NCBI GenBank assembly: GCA_008633435.1 | Contig: RKSL01000037.1 | Location: 1 to 56,503, forward strand | Reading direction: 5' to 3' | Length of the DNA stretch: 56,503 bases | Source of the DNA: Candidatus Desulfobulbus rimicarensis | Lineage (GTDB): Bacteria; Desulfobacterota; Desulfobulbia; Desulfobulbales; Desulfobulbaceae | Part shown: positions 83 through 46,080 of the stretch, piece after piece | How positions within the stretch are numbered: position 1 is the stretch's first letter | Layout of the letters: every line of letters begins with the position of its first letter | Translations under genes and position numbers: made by a program | Notes under the pieces: model-generated | What the model saw: only the letters and a program-made list of their open reading frames with translations | Database searches by the model: none | What the model was told of the DNA's origin: nothing

Positions 83-1882
83 TCATGGAGCTGGCAGGAT
101 GAGGGTAAACAACGAGCCTTCCCCCAGAGTGCTTTGTAGTTCAACTGTTCCGTTATGGGACTCAGCAATATGCTTGACAATGGCCAGGCCAAGGCCTGTG
201 CCGCCATGTTCTCGACTTCTGGCTTTATCACAGCGATAGAAACGTTCAAAGATTCGTTTCTGATGTTCCGAGGCAATACCCGGGCCTTCATCCTGAACCT
301 GCAGACAGAGGTTTTTCTCCCCATTTTCCCGTTCAACTATTTCGGCAGAAAGTGAGACTGTTGAATCTTCCGGACTATAGGTAACTGCATTGGTCAACAG
401 GTTGATTACTGCCTGTTCAACCATCGGGCGATTTAACCTGGCTTTGAGGTTTTCAGGAATGCAGCGCAGGGTAAAGGTAATATTCTTCTGTTGAGCACTC
501 ACGCTACAGGTCTGAACAGCTGTTTCAAGAATCGATTTTATTTCCTCTTCACGCAGCTCCATGGCATTGTTTTCCGTGGTGTCTTCTATGCGGGCAAGGG
601 TTAACAAGTCATCAACAATGGCATCAAGCCGCACGGCCTGTTTATGAATAATCCCTAAAAAGTTTACCGCAGCTCCGGCATCATCAATGGCTCCATCAAG
701 GAGAGTTTCCACATAACCGCGAATTGCAGTTATGGGTGTTTTCAGCTCGTGGGAAACATTGGCAACAAAACTTTGCCTGATATTTTCCAGCTGATTTATT
801 CTCGTCAAATCATTAATGACCACCAGGCTCCCCATTTTTGTATTCTCTCCATCCTGCAACGGGTGAGCATGGCAGCGTAAATTCACCTGCTGTCCGTTTT
901 CAATCAGGCAGAGATCACGGGCAAGGGCATCGTCTATACAAAGAGAGTCATTAAGGAACTTCTGCAAAACTCTGTTGCGCAAAACACCTTCAAAGGCTAC
1001 TCCCTGTACTGCCTTATGATCAACATGAAACAGTTCAGCAGCAGCTCTGTTCATTCGTATTATGCGATGGTCATGGGCAAGAGCCAGTACCCCGTCATTC
1101 ATGCTGCCGAACACAGCCTCAAGCTCGTTGCGCTGCTGGCTGATTATTCGAATTCGACTGTTGAGCTGTCCGGCCATATGATTAAGCGCATGAGAAAGCT
1201 CTGCCATTTCCCGAGGCACAGAGCTTGCCTTAATGAGAATTGGCTGATCTGTTTCCCCACTGACCATGCGTTCAGCGCCACGGCGCATTTCTTCAAGGGG
1301 GCGGCTTATCCGGCGGGCAAGATAATACGACAATGCAGCTGCCACCAGCCCAATGCAAAAAATGCCATACATGATTTTTTTGTGGATCACAGCAAGCACG
1401 GTATCAAGAGTGGCCACAGAAACCGACAGACGCAGCACCCCTTTTTCCGGTGCCTGCTGGATGAGTGGAATGGCCACATAGAGCATGTTCTGCTGCAAGG
1501 TTTTGCTAAACCTTAGCGATGAACCTGTGGTGCCGGAAAACGCCTGGACAATTTCAGGACGCTTACCGTGATTATCCATCTGGGCTGGATTTTCATTGGA
1601 ATCGGCTAGAACAGTGCCGTCACCATTTATCACAGTAATCCGGGTAGAAGCTGCCCGACCAATAGTTCGGCAGAAATCCTGAAGCCCCCGAATATTGTCC
1701 CGGAGCAGAAGATTAACATGTGGCCTGAGCAGAATCGAACGATCCTGGATATCCTTTCGCATTTCACTGTAGTGAAAAGACTGCACCATCCTGGTGCCAT
1801 ACCAGCCAGCAGCAGCAAAGGAAATAATGATAATGAGAATTGCTGCAGGAAAAATCTGCCAGAAAAATCTTCGGTTTTTCAT
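83..1882 (-). CDS. phoR: Phosphate regulon sensor histidine kinase PhoR
   Basis: Inner-membrane sensor kinase that, in the known family, reads the state of the Pst transporter through PhoU and phosphorylates PhoB. The 599-residue protein has a first membrane segment at about 8-30, a periplasmic loop of about 135 residues, and a second membrane segment near 170-190. HAMP, then PAS (about 255-360) follow. The HisKA motif SHELKTP carries the phosphorylated His near 380. The ATPase domain shows NLLTNA, DEGPGI and GGTGLGLAIV. The gene starts 29 bases after the phoB stop, so phoB-phoR is one minus-strand operon. The periplasmic domain is larger than in E. coli PhoR, as is usual outside enterics. 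The ribosome binding site is weak, which may indicate translational coupling to phoB. Confidence 0.93.
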   Translation of the reverse strand: MKNRRFFWQIFPAAILIIIISFAAAGWYGTRMVQSFHYSEMRKDIQDRSILLRPHVNLLLRDNIRGLQDFCRTIGRAASTRITVINGDGTVLADSNENPAQMDNHGKRPEIVQAFSGTTGSSLRFSKTLQQNMLYVAIPLIQQAPEKGVLRLSVSVATLDTVLAVIHKKIMYGIFCIGLVAAALSYYLARRISRPLEEMRRGAERMVSGETDQPILIKASSVPREMAELSHALNHMAGQLNSRIRIISQQRNELEAVFGSMNDGVLALAHDHRIIRMNRAAAELFHVDHKAVQGVAFEGVLRNRVLQKFLNDSLCIDDALARDLCLIENGQQVNLRCHAHPLQDGENTKMGSLVVINDLTRINQLENIRQSFVANVSHELKTPITAIRGYVETLLDGAIDDAGAAVNFLGIIHKQAVRLDAIVDDLLTLARIEDTTENNAMELREEEIKSILETAVQTCSVSAQQKNITFTLRCIPENLKARLNRPMVEQAVINLLTNAVTYSPEDSTVSLSAEIVERENGEKNLCLQVQDEGPGIASEHQKRIFERFYRCDKARSREHGGTGLGLAIVKHIAESHNGTVELQSTLGEGSLFTLILPAP

Positions 1883-1911
1883 ATGATTACCACAAGAAAT
1901 ATTCAGAGAAG

Positions 1912-2610
1912 CTACTCTTTAAGACGATATCCTATACCACGTACGGTTTCTATATATTCTCCCATTCTGCCCAGTTTTTTGCGAAGGCCAAAAATCTGCA
2001 CATCCACGGCCCGGGGAGTAATAAGATAATCGTAGCCACGAATCCGGTCAATTATTTGCTGCCTGCTGAATACCCATCCCGGCCGGGTTGCCAACTGCTC
2101 AAGAATGGTAAACTCTGTGGTTGTCAGATGAATCGGTTTATCCTCAACCAGAACCTCATGTCGACCAGGGTGGATAACCAAGGAGTGAATGGCAATGCTT
2201 TCCTGGACCGGTTCCTGGTCGAGCAGTTTTTTCTCATGTTTTCTACGTAACAATGCCTGAACCCGGGCAATGAGTACCCTGGGGCTGAACGGTTTAGTGA
2301 CGTAATCATCAGCGCCGCAACTTAACCCTGTTACTATATCATCTTCTTCACTCTTAGCGGTGAGCATGATGATGCAGGGCTGGGTAAAATCTTTTTTGGC
2401 ACGAATAACTGTACAGACCTCGGTACCGTCCTTTCCGGGCAGCATCAGATCAAGAAGAATAAGATCAACTCTTTCTTGTTCAAGTATCTCTAATGCCTCT
2501 TCACCGGAATCGGCACAGGTCACATTGAATCCTGCTTTAATAAGATTATAACTGACAAGTTGCTGGATATCTGCGTCGTCTTCAACGACAAGTATGTTTG
2601 CTTTAGCCAC
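1912..2610 (-). CDS. phoB: Phosphate regulon response regulator PhoB
   Basis: OmpR-type response regulator: an N-terminal receiver with the acidic pair VVEDD, phospho-acceptor Asp in ILLDLMLPG, and the conserved TAK and VTKPF positions, followed by a winged-helix DNA-binding domain. I place the start at a GTG (2608-2610), preceded by GCAGGAG with 8-base spacing, giving 232 residues, close to the usual PhoB length. A longer version starting at an ATG at 2670 is possible: it has a GAGGGGGG 8-9 bases upstream and would add 20 residues not expected in the family. Four 11-bp repeats lie 40 bases above that ATG, consistent with autoregulation. phoR follows after 29 bases. Confidence 0.92.
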   Translation of the reverse strand: MAKANILVVEDDADIQQLVSYNLIKAGFNVTCADSGEEALEILEQERVDLILLDLMLPGKDGTEVCTVIRAKKDFTQPCIIMLTAKSEEDDIVTGLSCGADDYVTKPFSPRVLIARVQALLRRKHEKKLLDQEPVQESIAIHSLVIHPGRHEVLVEDKPIHLTTTEFTILEQLATRPGWVFSRQQIIDRIRGYDYLITPRAVDVQIFGLRKKLGRMGEYIETVRGIGYRLKE

Positions 2611-2709
2611 AGAGGATGCTCCTGCAGGTATGTTACGAATTGGAATCACGTCAATAGTGTCATGAAGCATTTTACCTGCCCCCCCTCAGCTTGCAACAAA
2701 AAAGCCCAC

Positions 2710-2753
2710 CCTAACACTATCCTAATACAACTGTAACAAAACCCTAAAACAAT
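2710..2753 (+). promoter_or_regulatory. Tandem Pho-box-like 11-bp repeats before phoB
   Basis: Four directly adjoining 11-mers read on the plus strand: CCTAACACTAT, CCTAATACAAC, TGTAACAAAAC, CCTAAAACAAT. The 11-bp period with a conserved core and AT-rich remainder matches how PhoB dimers bind tandem half-sites. The same core occurs before phoU and pstS. The orientation is opposite to phoB transcription. The binding role is inferred from position, period and gene context. Confidence 0.75.
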
Positions 2754-2791
2754 CAGTTACAACACGCACAAGAATTTAAGAAAAGAGTGAT

Positions 2792-2827
2792 GGGTGCCTT
2801 GAAAATTTAGAATTTTTCAAGGTGGCC
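2792..2827. repeat. 36-bp palindromic repeat, copy 1
   Basis: GGGTGC, then CCTTGAAAA and TTTTTCAAGG arms around an AT-rich centre, then TGGCC. It is nearly identical to the element at 28193-28228 (only a few differences in 36 bases). It sits about 115 bases after the stop of the HD-GYP gene and may act as a transcription terminator or mRNA end. Confidence 0.6.
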
Positions 2828-2942
2828 TGATGTCATTTAAGCACAGATAAGCGCAAACCCGGCATGACCGCACGTACCTCTTGTTTTTCTCGTAACTGTG
2901 GTATGGAAAAGGCAGAAATACGCTTATAAGACAAAGCCGGGA

Positions 2943-3998
2943 TTATTGAAAGGATGTGACAAGTTCAGGCACAACATCAGCGGTAAAAATGTCCACCAGT
3001 TCTGCGTCAAACTGACGACCTGTACACTGACGCAGCTCAGCAACAGCCTGCACTGCAGAAAAATTTCGACGATAATTCCGGCGAGAGGTCATGGCATCAT
3101 AGCTATCAACAATAGTTATTATTCGTGTTAACAGATCAATTTCATTTTCACCAATACCATCAGGATAGCCTTTGCCGTCAAGACGCTCGTGGTGATGGCG
3201 AATGATTAGGCTTTTCCGTTCCATAAACCGCAAAGGCTCAACAATTTTGGCGCCAACCTCGGGATGTTTTTTAATCAGTTCCCACTCTTCCGGGGTCAAC
3301 TTACCTGATTTTTGAATACAGGAGAGATCAATAACCAGTTTGCCAATATCATGGAACTGTGCAGCCCGGCGCAGGACAAGACGATCCTCAGCTGAAATAT
3401 CCACATAATCAGCAATGCGCATGGAAAGGTCTGTAACGCGACAGGTGTGGCCGGCAGTATACTCATCTTTTTCCTCCATTGCCGCCTGCAACGAGGACAT
3501 AAGTCGAACGGTGGAGTGTTCCAGATGCTCACTATATCGCTCAAGAATAATATTTTGTTCAGCCAGTTCCCGGGTTTTTTTCTGTACTTCTCTTTCCAGG
3601 GTCTTTTTATAGAGATGCTCTTGACGAATATACGTCCGTTTTTCAACCGCACGCTTAATCTTGATATTGAACAAATCAAGATCATCAATGGGCTTTGTTA
3701 AAAAATCATAAGCTCCAAGATTGATGGCCTTAACCGCATAGTCTATGGAGCCAGCACCTGTAAGAAACAGCACAGGAATATCGATATTTTGCTGATTAAG
3801 ACGATCGAGAGTTTCAAAACCATCAAGATCGGGCATATTAATATCGAGGATAATGACATCATACTCGTCATTGACCGTTGTCAGCACATCTCTTCCAGAA
3901 CAGACCCCAACCACTGCATAGCCGAACATGGTGAGAATATTTTCCACCGTTGTCCGTACAGCATTATCGTCATCTGCTATGAGAATTTTTGTCTGCAT
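2943..3998 (-). CDS. Response regulator with HD-GYP output domain (c-di-GMP phosphodiesterase type)
   Basis: Cytoplasmic two-component protein of 351 residues. A receiver domain (1-120) shows ILIADDD, the phospho-acceptor in IILDINMPDLDG, and FLTKP. A helical, probably coiled-coil linker spans about 125-165. The C-terminal HD-GYP domain shows the metal-binding AAQFHDIGK and HHERLDGKGYPDG motifs with all key residues intact, so c-di-GMP hydrolysis is expected from the family. It lies between phoB and the divergent phoU-pst genes, sharing the 388-bp region 3999-4386 with phoU. No cognate kinase lies next to it; PhoR or a distant kinase may act on it. The start follows a GGGTGG-like site. Confidence 0.88.
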   Translation of the reverse strand: MQTKILIADDDNAVRTTVENILTMFGYAVVGVCSGRDVLTTVNDEYDVIILDINMPDLDGFETLDRLNQQNIDIPVLFLTGAGSIDYAVKAINLGAYDFLTKPIDDLDLFNIKIKRAVEKRTYIRQEHLYKKTLEREVQKKTRELAEQNIILERYSEHLEHSTVRLMSSLQAAMEEKDEYTAGHTCRVTDLSMRIADYVDISAEDRLVLRRAAQFHDIGKLVIDLSCIQKSGKLTPEEWELIKKHPEVGAKIVEPLRFMERKSLIIRHHHERLDGKGYPDGIGENEIDLLTRIITIVDSYDAMTSRRNYRRNFSAVQAVAELRQCTGRQFDAELVDIFTADVVPELVTSFQ

Positions 3999-4126
3999 GG
4001 TCAGCCCACCCTGAACTTTTCAAAAGTCATCTGTAAATAGAGTATTTCTTAAGTAAATTCTCTCATAAATCGAATCAATTGCAAGATCAAATATCATTTT
4101 TCATCATTTTCAAGAACCACCAATTC

Positions 4127-4170
4127 CCTAATGCAATCCTAACAAAATTCTAACCCAACCCTAAAAGATA
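4127..4170 (+). promoter_or_regulatory. Tandem Pho-box-like 11-bp repeats before phoU-pst
   Basis: Four adjoining 11-mers: CCTAATGCAAT, CCTAACAAAAT, TCTAACCCAAC, CCTAAAAGATA. Period and core match the array before phoB. They lie 217 bases above the phoU start, in the divergent region between the HD-GYP gene (start 3998) and phoU, so they could serve either gene. The orientation is forward for phoU. A long leader follows that contains a degenerate copy of a dispersed repeat. Confidence 0.78.
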
Positions 4171-4240
4171 TTTATTTAAAAGAGATTAGCAACTATCGCT
4201 GCTCCAGGTCAAGCTACTCAAACACGTTTCTCTGGTACAA

Positions 4241-4363
4241 ATTGTCTGACCAGCAAGACTGGATCAAAACGAGACCGACAACAAAGAGCAAAGACTTCGA
4301 ACCATGCACGGTGGTTATTGCGGCATGGCAACCATACATAGCGTTTTGAAACACTTTCATAAA
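4241..4363. repeat. Degenerate copy of ~100-bp intergenic repeat
   Basis: Within the phoU leader, ACCAGCAAGACTGGATCAAA, GGTTATTGCGGCATGGCA and ACTTTCATAAAC align in order with the repeat units at 14885-15080 and 24661-24757. Divergence is high, so this is a probable old copy. Besides the Pho boxes and this repeat, the 388-bp gap 3999-4386 shows only the phoU ribosome binding site GGAGG. Confidence 0.4.
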
Positions 4364-4386
4364 CACTGATCCGCAAGGAGGGTAGA

Positions 4387-5049
4387 GTGCCCCATCAAAT
4401 AACGTTCCACCGAGAAATTGAAAAGCTGAAACAAAAATTTATGATTCTTGGCTCCATGGTTGAAGACAGACTGCAAAAGACCAGTCTTGCCATGAAGTCC
4501 CGTTCATCGGAGCTTCTTGAACAAATTATCAGCTCTGACTGGGAAATTGATGAAATGGAAATAGAGGTTGAAGAAGAATGTCTGAAGATTCTAGCTCTGC
4601 ACCAGCCGGTGGCCAGCGATCTCCGGCTGCTCATTGCCATAATAAAAATTAACAATGAGCTGGAACGCATTGCTGATAATGCCGTCAATATTGCCCAGCG
4701 CATTCAAACCATAAGCAAAGACTCCACCCTTGAATTCACCATTGATTACGAGCCAATGTTTGGCATAGTCCTGAACATGTTCAAACTGGGGCTTGATGCT
4801 CTTGTTACAGAAAACTCTGATCTTGCCCGCCGGATTTTCATTGAAGATGAAACAGTTAACCAGCTTCGTAATCAGGCCTATAAAGACGTTATACGCGAAC
4901 TGACCAAAGAAGCTGGCCATGGAAAATGTCTGGTGAATCTTTACCTGATGGCGCGCCATCTTGAGCGTATCGGCGATCGAATCAAAAACATTGCCGAAGA
5001 AGTCATCTATCTTGTTGAAGGAAAAATAGTCCGGGGGGAATCGCATTAA
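4387..5049 (+). CDS. phoU: Phosphate signalling complex protein PhoU
   Basis: Cytoplasmic all-helical protein of 220 residues, made of two PhoU repeats (about 10-100 and 115-210) with the acidic metal-binding helices (EIDEMEIEVEEECL; ERIADNAVNIAQRI; ERIGDRIKNIAEEV). In the family it couples Pst transport activity to PhoR and restrains uptake. The start is GTG, with GGAGG five bases before it. It heads the plus-strand order phoU-pstC-pstA-pstS-pstB, with one base between its stop and pstC, unlike the enteric order where phoU is last. PhoB-like repeats lie 217 bases upstream. Confidence 0.95.
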   Translation: MPHQITFHREIEKLKQKFMILGSMVEDRLQKTSLAMKSRSSELLEQIISSDWEIDEMEIEVEEECLKILALHQPVASDLRLLIAIIKINNELERIADNAVNIAQRIQTISKDSTLEFTIDYEPMFGIVLNMFKLGLDALVTENSDLARRIFIEDETVNQLRNQAYKDVIRELTKEAGHGKCLVNLYLMARHLERIGDRIKNIAEEVIYLVEGKIVRGESH

Positions 5050-5050
5050 C

Positions 5051-6436
5051 ATGCACTTGTCATTTTTTCTCCTGATCCTGCTCGCCCTTTCTTCTGGTGC
5101 CTATATGTTGGGCAAACAGAAGGCTCTGCAGTTTACCAGGGAACGGGGTGCAGCCGCCATCCACTCCCGGCCGGGCTATTACGGGCTGTTGCTGGCTCTC
5201 TGGTGCGCCCTGCCCTCATTGTTTATTTTTCTGTTCTGGACATTTTTTTCAGATACAGTCCTCACCTCACTTGCGATCAATACTCTGCCTGAATCACTGC
5301 AAAATCTTGCCCCGGATCAACTCAACCTGATGGTCAATGACTTGCGTAACCTTGTTGCCGGTCATGTTGCGCCCCGTGATATTGACCCGGTGCTACAGCT
5401 TGCCGCTGACAAATACAACAGCATGGCCAGTATCAGCAAACTTGCCCTTGGCGCAGTCATGTTCTGCGCAGCTACGGTCTCATCCCTGCTGGTGTACAAA
5501 CGTATCGTGCCTGAAATGCGAGCTCGGAACAGGGTTGAAAGAATTATCAAAATCGCCCTGATGCTCTGCTCTGTCATTGCCATTCTTACCACCATAGGCA
5601 TTGTTGTTTCTGTGCTCTTTGAGTCGATCAGATTTTTTAAACAGGTCCCCATAACCGACTTTCTCTTCGGGCTGAAATGGAGTCCTCAAATGGCCATGCG
5701 AGCCGACCAGGCGGGAAGCTCAGGAAGTTTTGGGGCTGTTCCTATAATGGCGGGAACCTTTCTGATCTCAGGAATCGCTCTGACCGTTGCCGTGCCCACC
5801 GGGCTTATGTCGGCAATTTATCTCTCTGAATATGCCGGGCCAAGAGTGCGGACATGGGCAAAACCTATTATGGAAATTCTGGCAGGTGTCCCCACGGTGG
5901 TCTACGGTTTTTTTGCCGCTCTGGTCGTCTCCCCGTTCATTCGTAACAGCGGTGAAATGTTTGGCCTGCAGGTTTCTTCTGAAAGTGCTCTTGCTGCTGG
6001 TCTTGTCATGGGGGTGATGATAATCCCATTTATTTCTTCACTCTCAGATGATGTCATCAATGCCGTGCCCCAGGCCATGCGGGATGGCTCATACGGACTG
6101 GGCGCGACCAAGAGTGAAACAATAACCAACGTTATCATTCCTGCAGCCCTGCCTGGCATTGTCGGCGGGGTGCTGCTAGCCGCCTCAAGAGCCATTGGCG
6201 AAACCATGATTGTAGTCATGGCTGCCGGACTATCCGCCAACCTGACTGCAAATCCACTACATGCTGTGACCACAGTGACTGTACAGATAGTTACCCTGCT
6301 GGTCGGAGATCAGGAGTTTGACAGCCCCAAGACTCTGGCCGCCTTTGCCCTGGGTCTGCTTCTTTTTCTGGTGACTCTGGTTTTTAATGTTGTTGCCCTT
6401 TATGTGGTTCGAAAATACCGTGAAGAATATGAATAA
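5051..6436 (+). CDS. pstC: Phosphate ABC transporter permease PstC
   Basis: Inner-membrane permease of 461 residues that pairs with PstA to move phosphate delivered by PstS. The C-terminal part (about 170-461) holds the usual six membrane segments and the permease EAA-type loop (DGSYGLGATKSETITNVIIP). Ahead of it is an extension of about 165 residues with three more hydrophobic segments and a soluble loop (about 69-128), making it much longer than the ~320-residue E. coli protein. Long forms are common in other proteobacterial lineages. It is coupled to phoU (1-bp gap) and overlaps pstA by 8 bases. Confidence 0.93.
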   Translation: MHLSFFLLILLALSSGAYMLGKQKALQFTRERGAAAIHSRPGYYGLLLALWCALPSLFIFLFWTFFSDTVLTSLAINTLPESLQNLAPDQLNLMVNDLRNLVAGHVAPRDIDPVLQLAADKYNSMASISKLALGAVMFCAATVSSLLVYKRIVPEMRARNRVERIIKIALMLCSVIAILTTIGIVVSVLFESIRFFKQVPITDFLFGLKWSPQMAMRADQAGSSGSFGAVPIMAGTFLISGIALTVAVPTGLMSAIYLSEYAGPRVRTWAKPIMEILAGVPTVVYGFFAALVVSPFIRNSGEMFGLQVSSESALAAGLVMGVMIIPFISSLSDDVINAVPQAMRDGSYGLGATKSETITNVIIPAALPGIVGGVLLAASRAIGETMIVVMAAGLSANLTANPLHAVTTVTVQIVTLLVGDQEFDSPKTLAAFALGLLLFLVTLVFNVVALYVVRKYREEYE

Positions 6437-40899: not shown

Positions 40900-41502
40900 T
40901 CAGTTTTTAGCCAGCAGCACAAAATCTATTGCACTGGCATAATCAAGCAGGGTCTGCTTATCAACCTGATTGCCCTTAACAGTAACCATGAACCGGTTGG
41001 CCACCACAATATCCACTTCTCCTTTGTGTGCCTTGTCGTCAAATTTAAGGATTGCCCGCTGGCCTTGAACAGTAATCAACGAACCTCCTGCCGCACCGGC
41101 AAACATGGGATTATTAAGCATCATCATAACCGATTGCAACACAGGGGAGTCTGAAACAATTTCCATGGCAACAGTGGAAGTGCCTTTGGAGTAGTCACGA
41201 CTCACCGTCACTCCGCCCCCAAAAACAGCCGTACCCAGCGTCTGGGCACTGGCCGGTTTTGCCTGCCAGCCTGGCAGCGGTTCGGGCAGCAGATCTTTCA
41301 TGTGCTCACTCTTTTTCTGGCGAACAAGCTGGGAGGCGTAATCAAGATTGGAAGCGGCTCCGGCATAATCACCTACCCGGTACTGTTTAACCGCCTGATC
41401 AATGGTCGTCAGGATATCATCAGTCCCCTCCGCGGCCATTACCAAACCTGGCAAACAAGCTGCAAGCAAAAAAAGAAGGGTATACAAAACTTGTGGCTTC
41501 AT
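40900..41502 (-). CDS. Periplasmic protein of unknown function, ~200 residues
   Basis: Not recognised. From an ATG with GGAG nine bases upstream it has a signal peptide (VLYTLLFLLAACLPGLVMAA, cleavage likely before EGTDD). A helical stretch follows (about 25-70; IDQAVKQYRVGDYAGAASNLDYASQLVRQKK, TPR-like), then a domain of about 120 residues with GTAVFGGGVTVSRDYS, VAMEIVSDSPVLQSV, and VTVKGNQVDKQTLLDYASAI. It is monocistronic: a terminator follows, and the divergent P-loop/phosphatase gene lies upstream. The Cys in LLAAC could suggest a lipobox, but the stronger Ala-Ala site follows. Confidence 0.7.
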   Translation of the reverse strand: MKPQVLYTLLFLLAACLPGLVMAAEGTDDILTTIDQAVKQYRVGDYAGAASNLDYASQLVRQKKSEHMKDLLPEPLPGWQAKPASAQTLGTAVFGGGVTVSRDYSKGTSTVAMEIVSDSPVLQSVMMMLNNPMFAGAAGGSLITVQGQRAILKFDDKAHKGEVDIVVANRFMVTVKGNQVDKQTLLDYASAIDFVLLAKN

Positions 41503-41847
41503 TGGTTGTTTCTCCACAAAAAAATATCATAATATATTGTGATGTGATACCAGTTAATCAGCCCCTGTGTCAAGAAGAGATGAATTGCACAGTGCGCTGC
41601 GTTCTACTCAGAGCTTTGCTTTTCATGGCAGATAAACCGGGTCAAATACAGCTCATTCCTGCTGAATGCTCCTGAAAAACTCCGCGCACATGGTGTGCAT
41701 ATAGACTTGTTGGTTGCATTTTTTTCGGATAGTATCAGCAACTGAACAGGGCGTAATCAGATTCACCCCCCCTGACCACCAACACTATAAACCTTGCGGC
41801 AGAGGCAAACACTCCCACGCAACGTTTCAGAGTTTTGCAGGATACCC
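41503..41847. other. Divergent intergenic region upstream of the P-loop/PPP gene
   Basis: About 345 bases between two divergent genes. It holds TATCA...TGATA arms near 41524-41548 and a TATAAA at about 41785 that might serve as a -10 element for the plus-strand gene. No gene, Pho-box array or known repeat was seen. Confidence 0.35.
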
Positions 41848-43935
41848 ATGGCTGATCCGTTTAGAAAAAAACTTGTCCCGATAACAAAACTGCAAAACGT
41901 TCGCGGAGTGGATCTTCCCATTGGCCTGGATTTTATCCAGCTGGTGGTCACCGGCCCACCCGGAGCTGGAAAAACATATTATATCAACACGATACATGGC
42001 TGGCCAAATGAAGGCTACCTCGATCTCACCCGCAAGGGCTGGTGGAAAGACCGCTCACTCACCTACCGGCCTCGAGAAGTTCACCTTGGCCTGCCTTTTG
42101 AGGGGATGCCGCAGGCCCTGGCAGTTTTTGACCAGCAATGGCTTGAGGCCTCCCCGCCCCTGAAACTGCAGCTGGGACGGTTTCAACTGCCTCCGGACGG
42201 CAGCAGATTCTTTGAGACCAATTGGCGAAAACGATATATTTTTGAATTTCTGCTGCCAACTGCCGAGGTAATTTTCAAACAACGTCAATCCCGACAATCT
42301 GAGGGATATTTCCCTGTTGATGAAGACCTTTCCCTGGAAATGGTCAAACGCCAGCTGGCAATTTATCAGGAAGTTGTGCTCTACATGCACCGGGTCAAGA
42401 TGCAGGTCTATGTTCGGGAATCGCTTGACAAGCCCCCAATGTGCATTGTTGAAGAAAATGACGCCGGTATCCCGCGCTGGGCCACGGCTCAACCCCCACC
42501 CCGGCCAAGCCTGAAAACCATGGATGGCTGGCGCAGGCTCATCCTGCGGCGTGATCCCATCAACTGGATAACCGTTACCAACAGCTGGCAACCCATTACC
42601 AGGGAAGGACGGGTAGCCCATGACGGCCATCCCTTTGAACTCAAAATTGGTAAGCGGAGGCTGCGTTTTTATCCGGAACTTCCCCTGGGGGTTCGCAAAA
42701 AATATCTGCGTCGCAACTGGCTGGTAACTGACCCGCGGACTTTTGGTTCGCGTATCTGCGGATTTACCCGAATTCGTCCTGCTGATACAGTGATGATTGG
42801 CCGGGCAAATCAAGAATATCAGGCAATTTTCTCCTTTGGCAAAGACGTTGGCAAACGCCATGTCAACATCACCAACGAAAAAGGGGATATCATCATCACC
42901 CCTCTTGAGGAAGACCGCCGGGTTGAGATAACCAGCTTAACCGATACAGACCGTGAATCCCGGGTAGAAACACGACGCTATGTGGCCATTGAAGAGATCC
43001 GCTCTATTTACGGCGGAGACATTGCTCTGTTATCACCCGAAAATGCCCTGGCACTTCTTAAAGAGGTCAACTCCCTGCTCGAAAGAGAACGCTACCGTCC
43101 TCTCAACTCTGAAGGACACCCGGGAGGGCTGATTGAAATTCCCGAAGAAAAGATTCCCATTATTGTCGGTGATCTTCATGCCCAGGTAAATAACCTGTTG
43201 AAAATTCTAACAGAAAACCGCTTTCTGGACGCACTTGAAGCAGAATCGGCATGTCTGATTATTCTCGGAGATGCTGTACACTCGGAGATCCCCGGTGAAA
43301 TGCGTACAATGGAAGACTCTATACTTATCATGGATATTATCCTTACCATGAAAAAACGTTTTCCAGACAATGTCTTTTATCTCCGTGGTAACCACGACAG
43401 TTTTGCCAGTTCAATCAGTAAAGACACTGTTCCCCAGGGAGTGGTCATGCAGCAGCAACTGCTCGATCTCCGCGGCAAGGAATATATGAATGAAATGGCA
43501 CGTTATTACGAGCTTCTTGCCTATGTTATTACATCGAAGAATTTTGTTGCCTGCCATGCCGGGCCTTCCCACAAGAAAGTTACCCGGTCAAAGCTCATCA
43601 ATCTGCATAAACATCCAAAAATCAGACATGATCTGATCTGCAGCCGCCTCAAACGCCCCAACTATCTGGCTGGATATTCCAAAGGAGATGTCAAACGGTT
43701 TCGCAAGGGGCTGGGGCTGGCAAAGAGCACTCCATTCATTGTCGGCCACACGCCCATTGATCCTTCGGGCAGTGTATGGCGCAATGTTGCTGATATTAAA
43801 GGACATCACATCATTTACAGTGGCAGGCCCAGTGGCCCGGCTGTTTTTGTGCAACTCAACGGCCAGATGATCCCCCTGCGCTACCCGGCAGAACCACTGA
43901 TAAAACTTATTGGTAAAATCGGCAAAAAAGGGTAG
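41848..43935 (+). CDS. P-loop / FHA-like / PPP-type metallophosphatase fusion protein
   Basis: A 695-residue soluble protein from an ATG with AGGA five bases upstream. Residues 36-43 are a clear P-loop (GPPGAGKT). A middle part of about 300 residues is unfamiliar, except that about 300-370 resembles an FHA fold (MIGRANQEY, then FGKDVGKRHVNI, then IIITPLEEDRRVEI). The C-terminal ~260 residues are a PPP-type phosphatase: GDLHAQ (~441), GDAVHSE (~473), RGNHDS (~512), HAGPSH (~569), GHTP (~632); the usual GDxVDRG is altered to GDAVHSE. It may both phosphorylate and dephosphorylate a substrate, as Pnkp-type repair proteins do, but order and middle region differ. DUF47 and PiT genes follow 62 bases on. 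Confidence 0.75.
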   Translation: MADPFRKKLVPITKLQNVRGVDLPIGLDFIQLVVTGPPGAGKTYYINTIHGWPNEGYLDLTRKGWWKDRSLTYRPREVHLGLPFEGMPQALAVFDQQWLEASPPLKLQLGRFQLPPDGSRFFETNWRKRYIFEFLLPTAEVIFKQRQSRQSEGYFPVDEDLSLEMVKRQLAIYQEVVLYMHRVKMQVYVRESLDKPPMCIVEENDAGIPRWATAQPPPRPSLKTMDGWRRLILRRDPINWITVTNSWQPITREGRVAHDGHPFELKIGKRRLRFYPELPLGVRKKYLRRNWLVTDPRTFGSRICGFTRIRPADTVMIGRANQEYQAIFSFGKDVGKRHVNITNEKGDIIITPLEEDRRVEITSLTDTDRESRVETRRYVAIEEIRSIYGGDIALLSPENALALLKEVNSLLERERYRPLNSEGHPGGLIEIPEEKIPIIVGDLHAQVNNLLKILTENRFLDALEAESACLIILGDAVHSEIPGEMRTMEDSILIMDIILTMKKRFPDNVFYLRGNHDSFASSISKDTVPQGVVMQQQLLDLRGKEYMNEMARYYELLAYVITSKNFVACHAGPSHKKVTRSKLINLHKHPKIRHDLICSRLKRPNYLAGYSKGDVKRFRKGLGLAKSTPFIVGHTPIDPSGSVWRNVADIKGHHIIYSGRPSGPAVFVQLNGQMIPLRYPAEPLIKLIGKIGKKG

Positions 43936-43997: not shown

Positions 43998-44684
43998 ATG
44001 GCTATGAAAACAACCAGCCCCCTGGCTGGCTTACTTCGGAGATCACCTTTTAAGCCCATTCAGGAACACATGCGAACAGTGTTTTCCTGTGTTTCCCTTT
44101 TGCAACCACTTTTTGAGGCGCTCTCTGCAAAAGACGCAGAAAAAGTCAAGGAACTGGCCACCCGGATTGGCAGCCTGGAAACAGAGGCTGATAAACAAAA
44201 AAGTGTGTTCCGACTGCACATGCCAAAAACGCTGTTCATGCCTGTTGATCGCCGCGACCTGCTCAACCTTCTGCGCGACCAGGATGGACTGGCAGATGAC
44301 GCGGAAAAAATCAGCCAGATCCTTATCAGCAGGGATATGGAAACACCAGATGCTATCAAGCCCCTTCTGGACGAACTCCTTACCGGGACACTTGCCATCT
44401 GCTCTGAGGCCAAACTGATGATTGAAGAACTTGACGAGCTGGTTCAGGTCGGTTTTGGAGGACGAGAACACGATAAGGTTATTGAAATGATTGCCGGAGT
44501 TCGATCAAGCGAGGACACCCTTGATCAGACACTGCACCAGATCAAACGGTCACTCTTTGCCATAGAAGACACGCTGTCACCGGTTTCCATAATGTTCTGG
44601 TACCAGATTTTTGATCTGCTGGGGAACATGTCCAATCAGGCAGAGAATATGTCGGACAGGCTGCTGCTCTTTTTGTCCAAGTAA
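43998..44684 (+). CDS. DUF47 (PhoU-like) protein paired with PiT
   Basis: A 228-residue all-helical protein of the TIGR00153/DUF47 family, related to PhoU, with acidic helices such as ATRIGSLETEADKQKS and DQDGLADDAEKISQIL. The family is usually encoded next to PiT phosphate transporters and is thought to regulate them. Here the PiT gene follows after 130 bases. AAGGAG precedes the ATG. The P-loop/PPP protein gene ends 62 bases upstream on the same strand. Confidence 0.9.
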   Translation: MAMKTTSPLAGLLRRSPFKPIQEHMRTVFSCVSLLQPLFEALSAKDAEKVKELATRIGSLETEADKQKSVFRLHMPKTLFMPVDRRDLLNLLRDQDGLADDAEKISQILISRDMETPDAIKPLLDELLTGTLAICSEAKLMIEELDELVQVGFGGREHDKVIEMIAGVRSSEDTLDQTLHQIKRSLFAIEDTLSPVSIMFWYQIFDLLGNMSNQAENMSDRLLLFLSK

Positions 44685-44814: not shown

Positions 44815-46080
44815 ATGGAAATTATTTCAGCATACGGCACCATTCTGATTGTGCTGGCAATGGTTTTTGGGCTGTACATGACCTGGGGGGTCGGAGCCAA
44901 TGATCTAGCCAATGCCATGGGTACCTCTGTTGGGGCCGGCGCAGTTTCAGTCAAACAGGCCATTGGCATTGCCATTGTCTTTGAATTTGCGGGCGCTGTA
45001 CTTGCCGGCGGACACGTGACTAAAACAATTCGTAAGGGTATTATTGACCCCACCGCAATTATTGACCACCCGGAAATTCTGGTTTACGGAATGCTGGCCG
45101 CTCTGCTGGCTGCAGCGGTCTGGCTGATGATTGCTTCGACTAAAGGGTGGCCTGTGTCAACAACCCATTCCATTGTGGGTGCGCTGATCGGCTTTGCCCT
45201 GGTCGGCATTGGCCCGGACGCGGTAAACTGGGGGAAAATAACAAAAATCATTGCCAGCTGGGTTATATCTCCCCTGATTGGCGGTACAATTTCTTTCCTG
45301 CTGGTCATGAGTACCAGAAAGCTCATTTTTGACACGGAAAACCCTCTAAAAAATGCCAAGAAATTTGCACCAATGTACATCTTTCTTGTCGGCTTTGTCA
45401 TCTCGCTGGTCACCCTGTTCAAGGGATTAAAACATCTCCATATTGATTTAAGTGGAAGCGCGAGTTTTATGCTGGCCATTGGTATCGGCGGCCTCACAGC
45501 ACTGCTGGGTTGGATCCTGGTACGAAAAGTTGCTGAAGACCCGGAGGCTGATCGGGATTTTCATTTTGCCAGCGTGGAAAAGGTTTTCACGCCGATGATG
45601 CTCTTTACAGCCTGTTCCATGGCTTTTGCCCACGGCTCAAACGATGTGGCAAACGGTATCGGCCCGCTGGCTGCAGTTGTCTCCATTGTCTCTTCTGGTG
45701 GCGAAGTCATGCAAAAATCGGAAATGCCGATCTGGATTCTTTTTCTCGGTGGTACCGGCATTGTTATCGGCCTGATTACTCTTGGCTACCGGGTCATGCT
45801 CACTGTCGGCACCAAGATCACCGAGCTTACACCTTCGCGTGGATTTTGCGCAGAACTGGCAGCCGCTTCAACAGTTGTCCTGGCCTCACGAACCGGACTT
45901 CCTGTCTCAACCACCCATATTCTTGTCGGCTCTGTGCTTGGTGTCGGCCTTGCCCGGGGTATTGGCGCCCTTGACCTGCGGGTTGTGATGAACATTATTA
46001 TTTCCTGGCTTGTAACCTTGCCCGCCGGTGCTGTGATGGCCATGGTGTTCTTCTTTTTTCTGAAAGGAATTTTTGGCTGA
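44815..46080 (+). CDS. PiT-family inorganic phosphate transporter
   Basis: A 421-residue inner-membrane protein with about ten to eleven hydrophobic segments. Both halves carry the PiT signature: GANDLANAMGTSVGAGAVS near the start and AHGSNDVANGIGPLAAV past the middle, with paired PVSTTHSIVG and PVSTTHILVG motifs. It takes up phosphate with protons or Na+ at low affinity and complements the high-affinity Pst system at the start of the window. GGAGAG precedes the ATG. The role of DUF47 as its partner follows from family knowledge. No Pho-box-like array was seen upstream. Confidence 0.93.
   Translation: MEIISAYGTILIVLAMVFGLYMTWGVGANDLANAMGTSVGAGAVSVKQAIGIAIVFEFAGAVLAGGHVTKTIRKGIIDPTAIIDHPEILVYGMLAALLAAAVWLMIASTKGWPVSTTHSIVGALIGFALVGIGPDAVNWGKITKIIASWVISPLIGGTISFLLVMSTRKLIFDTENPLKNAKKFAPMYIFLVGFVISLVTLFKGLKHLHIDLSGSASFMLAIGIGGLTALLGWILVRKVAEDPEADRDFHFASVEKVFTPMMLFTACSMAFAHGSNDVANGIGPLAAVVSIVSSGGEVMQKSEMPIWILFLGGTGIVIGLITLGYRVMLTVGTKITELTPSRGFCAELAAASTVVLASRTGLPVSTTHILVGSVLGVGLARGIGALDLRVVMNIIISWLVTLPAGAVMAMVFFFFLKGIFG

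Follow-up and report, generated by a model that had tools for sequence, protein, structure and literature searches.

What does a protein that joins a putative kinase to a phosphatase do directly in front of a transporter gene? The question is raised by one locus in the window (the whole stretch of 56,503 nucleotides analysed here, from Candidatus Desulfobulbus rimicarensis), in which an ORF (41848..43935, + strand) encodes a 695-aa kinase / FHA-like / PPP-phosphatase fusion protein, whose outline is supported by an alignment of 71 members (A2) and whose gene is present as a single copy in its own genome (2.9 Mb, 295 contigs). As the original prediction had stated, the fusion gene lies directly before a gene for a DUF47 / PhoU_div / TIGR00153 protein (43998..44684, + strand; Pfam E 3.3e-46, TIGR00153 above cut-off), which by our own identification belongs to the PitR class, and a gene for a 421-aa PiT-family transporter with GANDLANA and GSNDVANG motifs (44815..46080, + strand; PHO4 E 7e-122). 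All three genes share a strand and are separated by gaps of 62 bp (fusion gene to DUF47) and 130 bp (DUF47 to PiT).

Results

The fusion protein is a conserved family with two putative, conserved active sites

The 23 relatives found in genome contigs come from records titled Desulfobulbaceae, Desulfocapsa, Desulfofustis, Candidatus Electrothrix and similar, and alignment A2 was built by adding further genomes to this set. The length and motifs of the fusion protein are kept in the 71 aligned sequences, and relatives are 48-82% identical to the copy in the window. Pfam assigns residues 439-583 of the window copy to Metallophos (E 2.5e-7); its P-loop gives sub-threshold AAA matches only. The reading frame is broken at L019/L096 and at L097, through either sequencing error or decay, and two genomes (G149, G189) hold the gene as fragments only.

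The kinase part (approximately residues 25-200; 41920..42447, + strand) was delimited by a low-confidence AlphaFold model of residues 1-245 (pLDDT 61, pTM 0.64; limited alignment depth) and its VIA matches. Its Walker A motif, the originally noted GPPGAGKT (residues 36-43; 41953..41976, + strand), is undecayed, with G36, P37, P38, G39, G41, K42 and T/S43 in 71/71 members, which rules out a chance P-loop. K42 is joined in all members by the LID arginines R146 and R149, giving the motif set of a P-loop kinase, and D59 and the pair W65-W66 are likewise invariant (D95, 70/71). D59 opens a D59-x-x-R62 pattern (42022..42033, + strand), in the region presumed to provide the catalytic base of a kinase that acts on hydroxyls, and we infer from this pattern that the kinase part is of that kind, with the qualification that position 62 varies (R in 47, Q in 17 and K in 5 of the 71). 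Almost all VIA rows for the model are P-loop kinases of the adenylate/deoxynucleoside/thymidylate/polynucleotide group, the best of them at Z 5.3 against this low-confidence model and with many rows tied; in a profile comparison with AAA_33 kinases, the P-loop alone aligns.

The phosphatase part (residues 382-686; 42991..43905, + strand) is matched by Metallophos in 71/71 members, and in a full-length model (mean pLDDT 76) it aligns to human PP5 (3h64) with Z 26.0 and rmsd 3.1 over 266 residues. The Foldseek and VIA rows for this model cover the PPP part only, and are thus uninformative on the FHA or kinase parts. Its motifs are GDLH (441-444), GDAVHSE (474-480), GNHD (514-517), H570 and GHTP (633-636). 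Six metal ligands (D442, H444, D475, N515, H570, H634) and the general-acid H516, with roles assigned by motif alignment, are present in 71/71, as are H478 and D517; the earlier description of an intact PPP-type metal set at 441-640 with an unusual GDAVHSE block holds. That block (43267..43287, + strand) is itself conserved (G474, D475, A476 and H478 in 71/71, S479 in 68/71, E480 in 67/71). Since the family has GDAVHSE and GNHD where the GDxVDRG and GNHE signatures are absent, including the Arg of GDxVDRG, we call the part a divergent PPP-fold enzyme rather than a canonical PPP member. Mapped by eye across a loop of different length, His478 and Ser479 take the places of PP1 Asp95 and Arg96, and Arg603 (64/71) is a possible equivalent of PP1 Arg221. 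The last motif of the domain tells phosphomonoesterase (GHTP) from diesterase (GHxH) families; because it is GHTP here, a phosphomonoesterase is the more likely identity.

Between the two enzymes lies a region that resembles an FHA domain (residues 305-365; 42760..42942, + strand). The window copy has G318-R319 and R337-H338, followed by N343, G346 and D347. When the middle regions were scanned alone, Pfam FHA matched 27 of the 71 (best E 5e-4), with no match for the window's own copy; hhalign against a local set of FHA domains from related genomes scored 26.8 (Prob 27%) with the GR and RH pairs in register, the best of 40 column-shuffled controls reaching 17.2. The assignment as a degenerate, FHA-like region is therefore weak yet reproducible. 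Among the residues of the FHA phospho-binding set, G318 (71/71), R319 (61/71) and H338 (69/71) are well kept, whereas Ser335 is limited to 14/71 and the middle region of the alignment shows no recognisable NG pair. With the SxxH serine so infrequent and no NG pair recognisable, canonical phosphopeptide binding is doubtful; the predicted FHA-like motif set near 315-370 survives as a resemblance in sequence profile, and a canonical phosphopeptide-binding domain is not supported.

The fusion gene travels with one DUF47-PiT pair

Across 243 genomes of one order, the fusion gene or a fragment of it was found in 75, from two families only, and its carriers are described as sediment bacteria. A total of 77 carriers had been reported; G171 and G196 proved to be false matches to ABC (ModC-like) ATPases, and G187 has, as its second match, a phosphatase distinct from the fusion protein. 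Outside the order, 395 genomes of the phylum yielded no full-length relative and phosphatase-domain matches only. A mobile or phage gene was rejected, as searches of plasmid, phage and IMG/VR sequences gave no match and PADLOC gave no hit. At L098 (4900-5865), a separate phosphatase gene adjoins what reads from its sequence as a phage- or plasmid-like polymerase gene.

At 63 of the 67 readable loci, the same strand carries DUF47 57-459 bp downstream of the fusion gene, and PiT comes next after DUF47 wherever the DNA is long enough. The 12 other carriers comprise six contig edges, two fragments and four real exceptions, all four in one genus. Two of these (G131, G232) have the cognate DUF47-PiT pair elsewhere, unlinked; the other two (G067, G164) have an intact fusion gene and neither cognate partner, and the gene can therefore act, or at least survive, alone. 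In the loci of this genus (L061-L064), where the fusion gene was retained after loss or relocation of DUF47-PiT, three of four have GltB-type neighbours. At L010 (8088-8398), DUF47 alone is missing and the fusion gene directly precedes PiT. The triad stays intact in several flanking contexts, including GltB-type genes upstream, MutL upstream and, in the window, Mpl and a 205-aa gene upstream; MutL and GltB neighbours depend on lineage, whereas the linkage to DUF47-PiT is constant. The 205-aa protein is divergent (window 40900-41517), has no significant Pfam or NCBIfam match, and stays adjacent to the fusion gene at L002, L020 and L024. Adjacency, FHA likeness of the middle region and decay of the P-loop had been set beforehand as the points on which the original prediction could fail, and on all three the findings favoured it.

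No terminator-like site was found on the + strand between the fusion gene and DUF47, which agrees with co-transcription without showing it. Upstream of the fusion gene, an E. coli-type Pho box did not rise above shuffles, and alignment of the upstream DNA of the fusion-gene loci gave no clear regulatory block. Some 37 kb away, at window 83-6436, NCBIfam models point to genes for a PhoR-like kinase, a PhoB-like regulator, PhoU and PstC, the last two above cut-off.

The partners are also distinct in sequence. PiTs linked to a fusion gene are 77-90% identical to that of the window, against 46-50% for most relatives without the fusion gene, and the corresponding values for DUF47 are 56-74% and 31-36%; judged by these identities, the partner PiT and DUF47 proteins form a subfamily of their own. 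Rank correlation of pairwise identities with those of the fusion protein was 0.40 for PiT and 0.69 for DUF47. The trees of the fusion protein and DUF47 agree in grouping three genomes of family f1 (G111, G161, G144) with three of family f12 (G241, G226, G216), with support of 100/100 and 98/97, respectively, and this shared nesting of f1 genomes among those of f12 indicates a shared transfer between families. Loss is shared as well: G149 and G189, with fusion-gene fragments only, have only distant PiT and DUF47 types, and G099, from genus g8 (taken to be Electrothrix), has neither the fusion gene nor DUF47. One published Electrothrix strain, which may be a different genome from G099, is without PiT (PMC12093952).

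G065 has cognate-type DUF47-PiT but no fusion gene, and in G205 and G193 second copies of this type likewise stand without one. These second copies (L119, L120) have a LysR-type gene upstream, and L119 also has a CYTH-like gene nearby. Next to DUF47-PiT loci without the fusion gene there is often a histidine kinase gene, a response regulator gene or both (L107, L109, L111, L112, L115); these are PhoR/PhoB-like in L107 and include an NtrC-type regulator in L109. In Aeromonas caviae (L172, 2142-5266), a DUF47-PiT pair (PiT 58% identical) sits beside a divergent CYTH/CHAD-like gene with no fusion gene; the record is labelled plasmid, yet at 4.9 Mb is chromosome-sized.

Discussion

Linkage leads us to infer that the fusion protein controls phosphate uptake. 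We think it modestly probable that this bifunctional kinase/phosphatase is a dedicated accessory providing a reversible phospho-switch for one PitR(DUF47)-PiT phosphate uptake module. The kinase would add a phosphate to a hydroxyl of a shared target, be it PitR, PiT or a small signal molecule, and the PPP domain would take it off again, with the FHA-like region positioning or sensing; the balance between the two activities could then tune Pi import, or PitR's report to the PhoR/PhoB system. This reading is favoured because the DUF47 linkage is so regular and persists through changing flanks, because the fusion gene still precedes PiT when DUF47 is missing, and because the partners belong to one subfamily, with agreeing trees and co-loss; the invariance of the expected catalytic residues of both enzymes supports it further. 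It fits with published work in which PitR proteins, as partners of PitA, have an effect on PhoR in S. aureus (PMC13170248), and in which two Asp motifs in PiT are taken as a mark of phosphate transport (PMC5840216); the PiT of the window retains both. The PhoR-like, PhoB-like, PhoU and PstC genes elsewhere in the window count in its favour too. Counting against it are the carriers without partners or with unlinked ones and the partner pairs that stand alone, as well as the lack of an E. coli-type Pho box, the low confidence of the kinase model and the missing GDxVDRG Arg. A more specific version, to which we give low probability and which is drawn by analogy, is that the fusion protein both produces and removes a phosphorylated messenger (or a phospho-mark) which the PhoU-like PitR reads, so that the kinase/phosphatase balance gates uptake through PiT, with a logic like that of the eukaryotic PPIP5K-SPX system.

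The conservation of both active sites would also suit an enzyme of metabolism, rather than a regulator, that phosphorylates and/or dephosphorylates a Pi-linked compound (polyphosphate, a phosphosugar or a nucleotide) and lies beside the transporter because the two supply one Pi pool. PiT-DUF47 pairs elsewhere adjoin genes of CYTH or CYTH-CHAD type, as their domains read from sequence, which points to polyphosphate-like chemistry, and PiT-bearing cable bacteria have genes for polyphosphate kinase and are able to contain polyphosphate (PMC12093952, PMC10030654). We nevertheless regard this as unlikely, since without regulation an opposed kinase and phosphatase in one chain would cycle futilely, since an FHA-like region suggests signalling, and since pairing with one DUF47 subfamily favours a regulator. 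A Pnkp-like polynucleotide kinase-phosphatase that heals nucleic-acid ends, its place beside a transporter being an accident of inheritance, is distinctly unlikely. The protein has the kinase-then-PPP order of bacterial Pnkp, the domain kinds of mammalian PNKP and the D59-x-x-R62 pattern; structures of the C. thermocellum Pnkp kinase (4gp7, 4mde) turn up in the structural comparison at Z 4.6, level with other entries, and some lineages have MutL as a neighbour. However, R62 is replaced by Q in 17/71, the PNKP ligase domain PF16542 is absent from the window's own genome, and the constant neighbours are DUF47-PiT, MutL and GltB being lineage-dependent; no ligase or Hen1 was noticed among conserved neighbours, whereas pnkp reportedly always shares an operon with hen1 (PMC4411300). 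With no ligase domain and with transport genes as the conserved neighbours, Pnkp-type repair is less likely, and the claim that a repair or RNA-end role was equally open is not supported. Finally, the same switch might act on a transporter of another anion such as sulfate, since CysP, a PiT-family member, carries sulfate, since sulfate reducers have a group of PiTs with a mean length of 412 aa (PMC5840216), and since the best NCBIfam match of the window's PiT is the sulfate permease CysP, far under cut-off (123 of 400 bits). The GANDLANA and GSNDVANG motifs keep the Asp residues tied to phosphate transport (PMC5840216), the DUF47 partner appears to be a PitR-class protein, a class associated with PitA (PMC13170248), and Na+-dependent phosphate transport is the annotated function of the Electrothrix PiT (PMC12093952), making this very unlikely.

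If the phospho-switch reading is right, the locus bears on a wider problem. How PhoU-class proteins sense phosphate and relay that information is still unsettled, and a fusion that is passed on together with one PitR-PiT module would supply a tangible chemical candidate and open the way to a direct genetic test. The range of known kinase-phosphatase fusions also gains a domain arrangement, from cable bacteria and related organisms that in some cases store polyphosphate.

Comparison with known systems

What is new here is a kinase / FHA-like / PPP architecture linked to a transporter-regulator pair that was already known; a phosphate switch built on such a fusion was described in no paper that we found. 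As in PitR-PitA modules, DUF47 stands directly before the PiT transporter, and unlike in them a third gene, for the kinase/phosphatase, comes first; the text of a PitR survey (PMC13170248) mentions neither metallophosphoesterase, FHA nor 'Desulf'.

The phosphatase part shares the fold and metal ligands (residues 382-686) of eukaryotic-type PPP phosphatases (PP5, PP1, calcineurin), and differs from them in His478/Ser479 for PP1 Asp95/Arg96 and in GNHD for GNHE. Bacterial Pnkp (kinase-PPP-ligase, with Hen1) likewise starts with a P-loop kinase and continues with a PPP-type phosphatase, so that of the differences in order, length and middle region originally named, the one in order does not stand. 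The differences that stand are these: the fusion protein ends with its PPP domain and has no C-terminal ligase/adenylyltransferase, about 180 residues with the FHA-like part separate its two enzymes, and it has GDAVHSE for GDxVDRG and a transporter neighbourhood. Mammalian PNKP (FHA, HAD phosphatase, kinase) is also a single chain built from these three kinds of domain, in another order and with an unrelated phosphatase fold. PPIP5K/VIH/Vip1 proteins also join an N-terminal kinase, a C-terminal phosphatase and a small signalling domain (PMC11836120, PMC6731061), and in PPIP5K this one-chain pair controls a messenger in phosphate homeostasis (PMC11836120); they are eukaryotic, have histidine-phosphatase and GAF domains, and are not homologous to the fusion protein as far as known, making the likeness a working analogy rather than a relationship.
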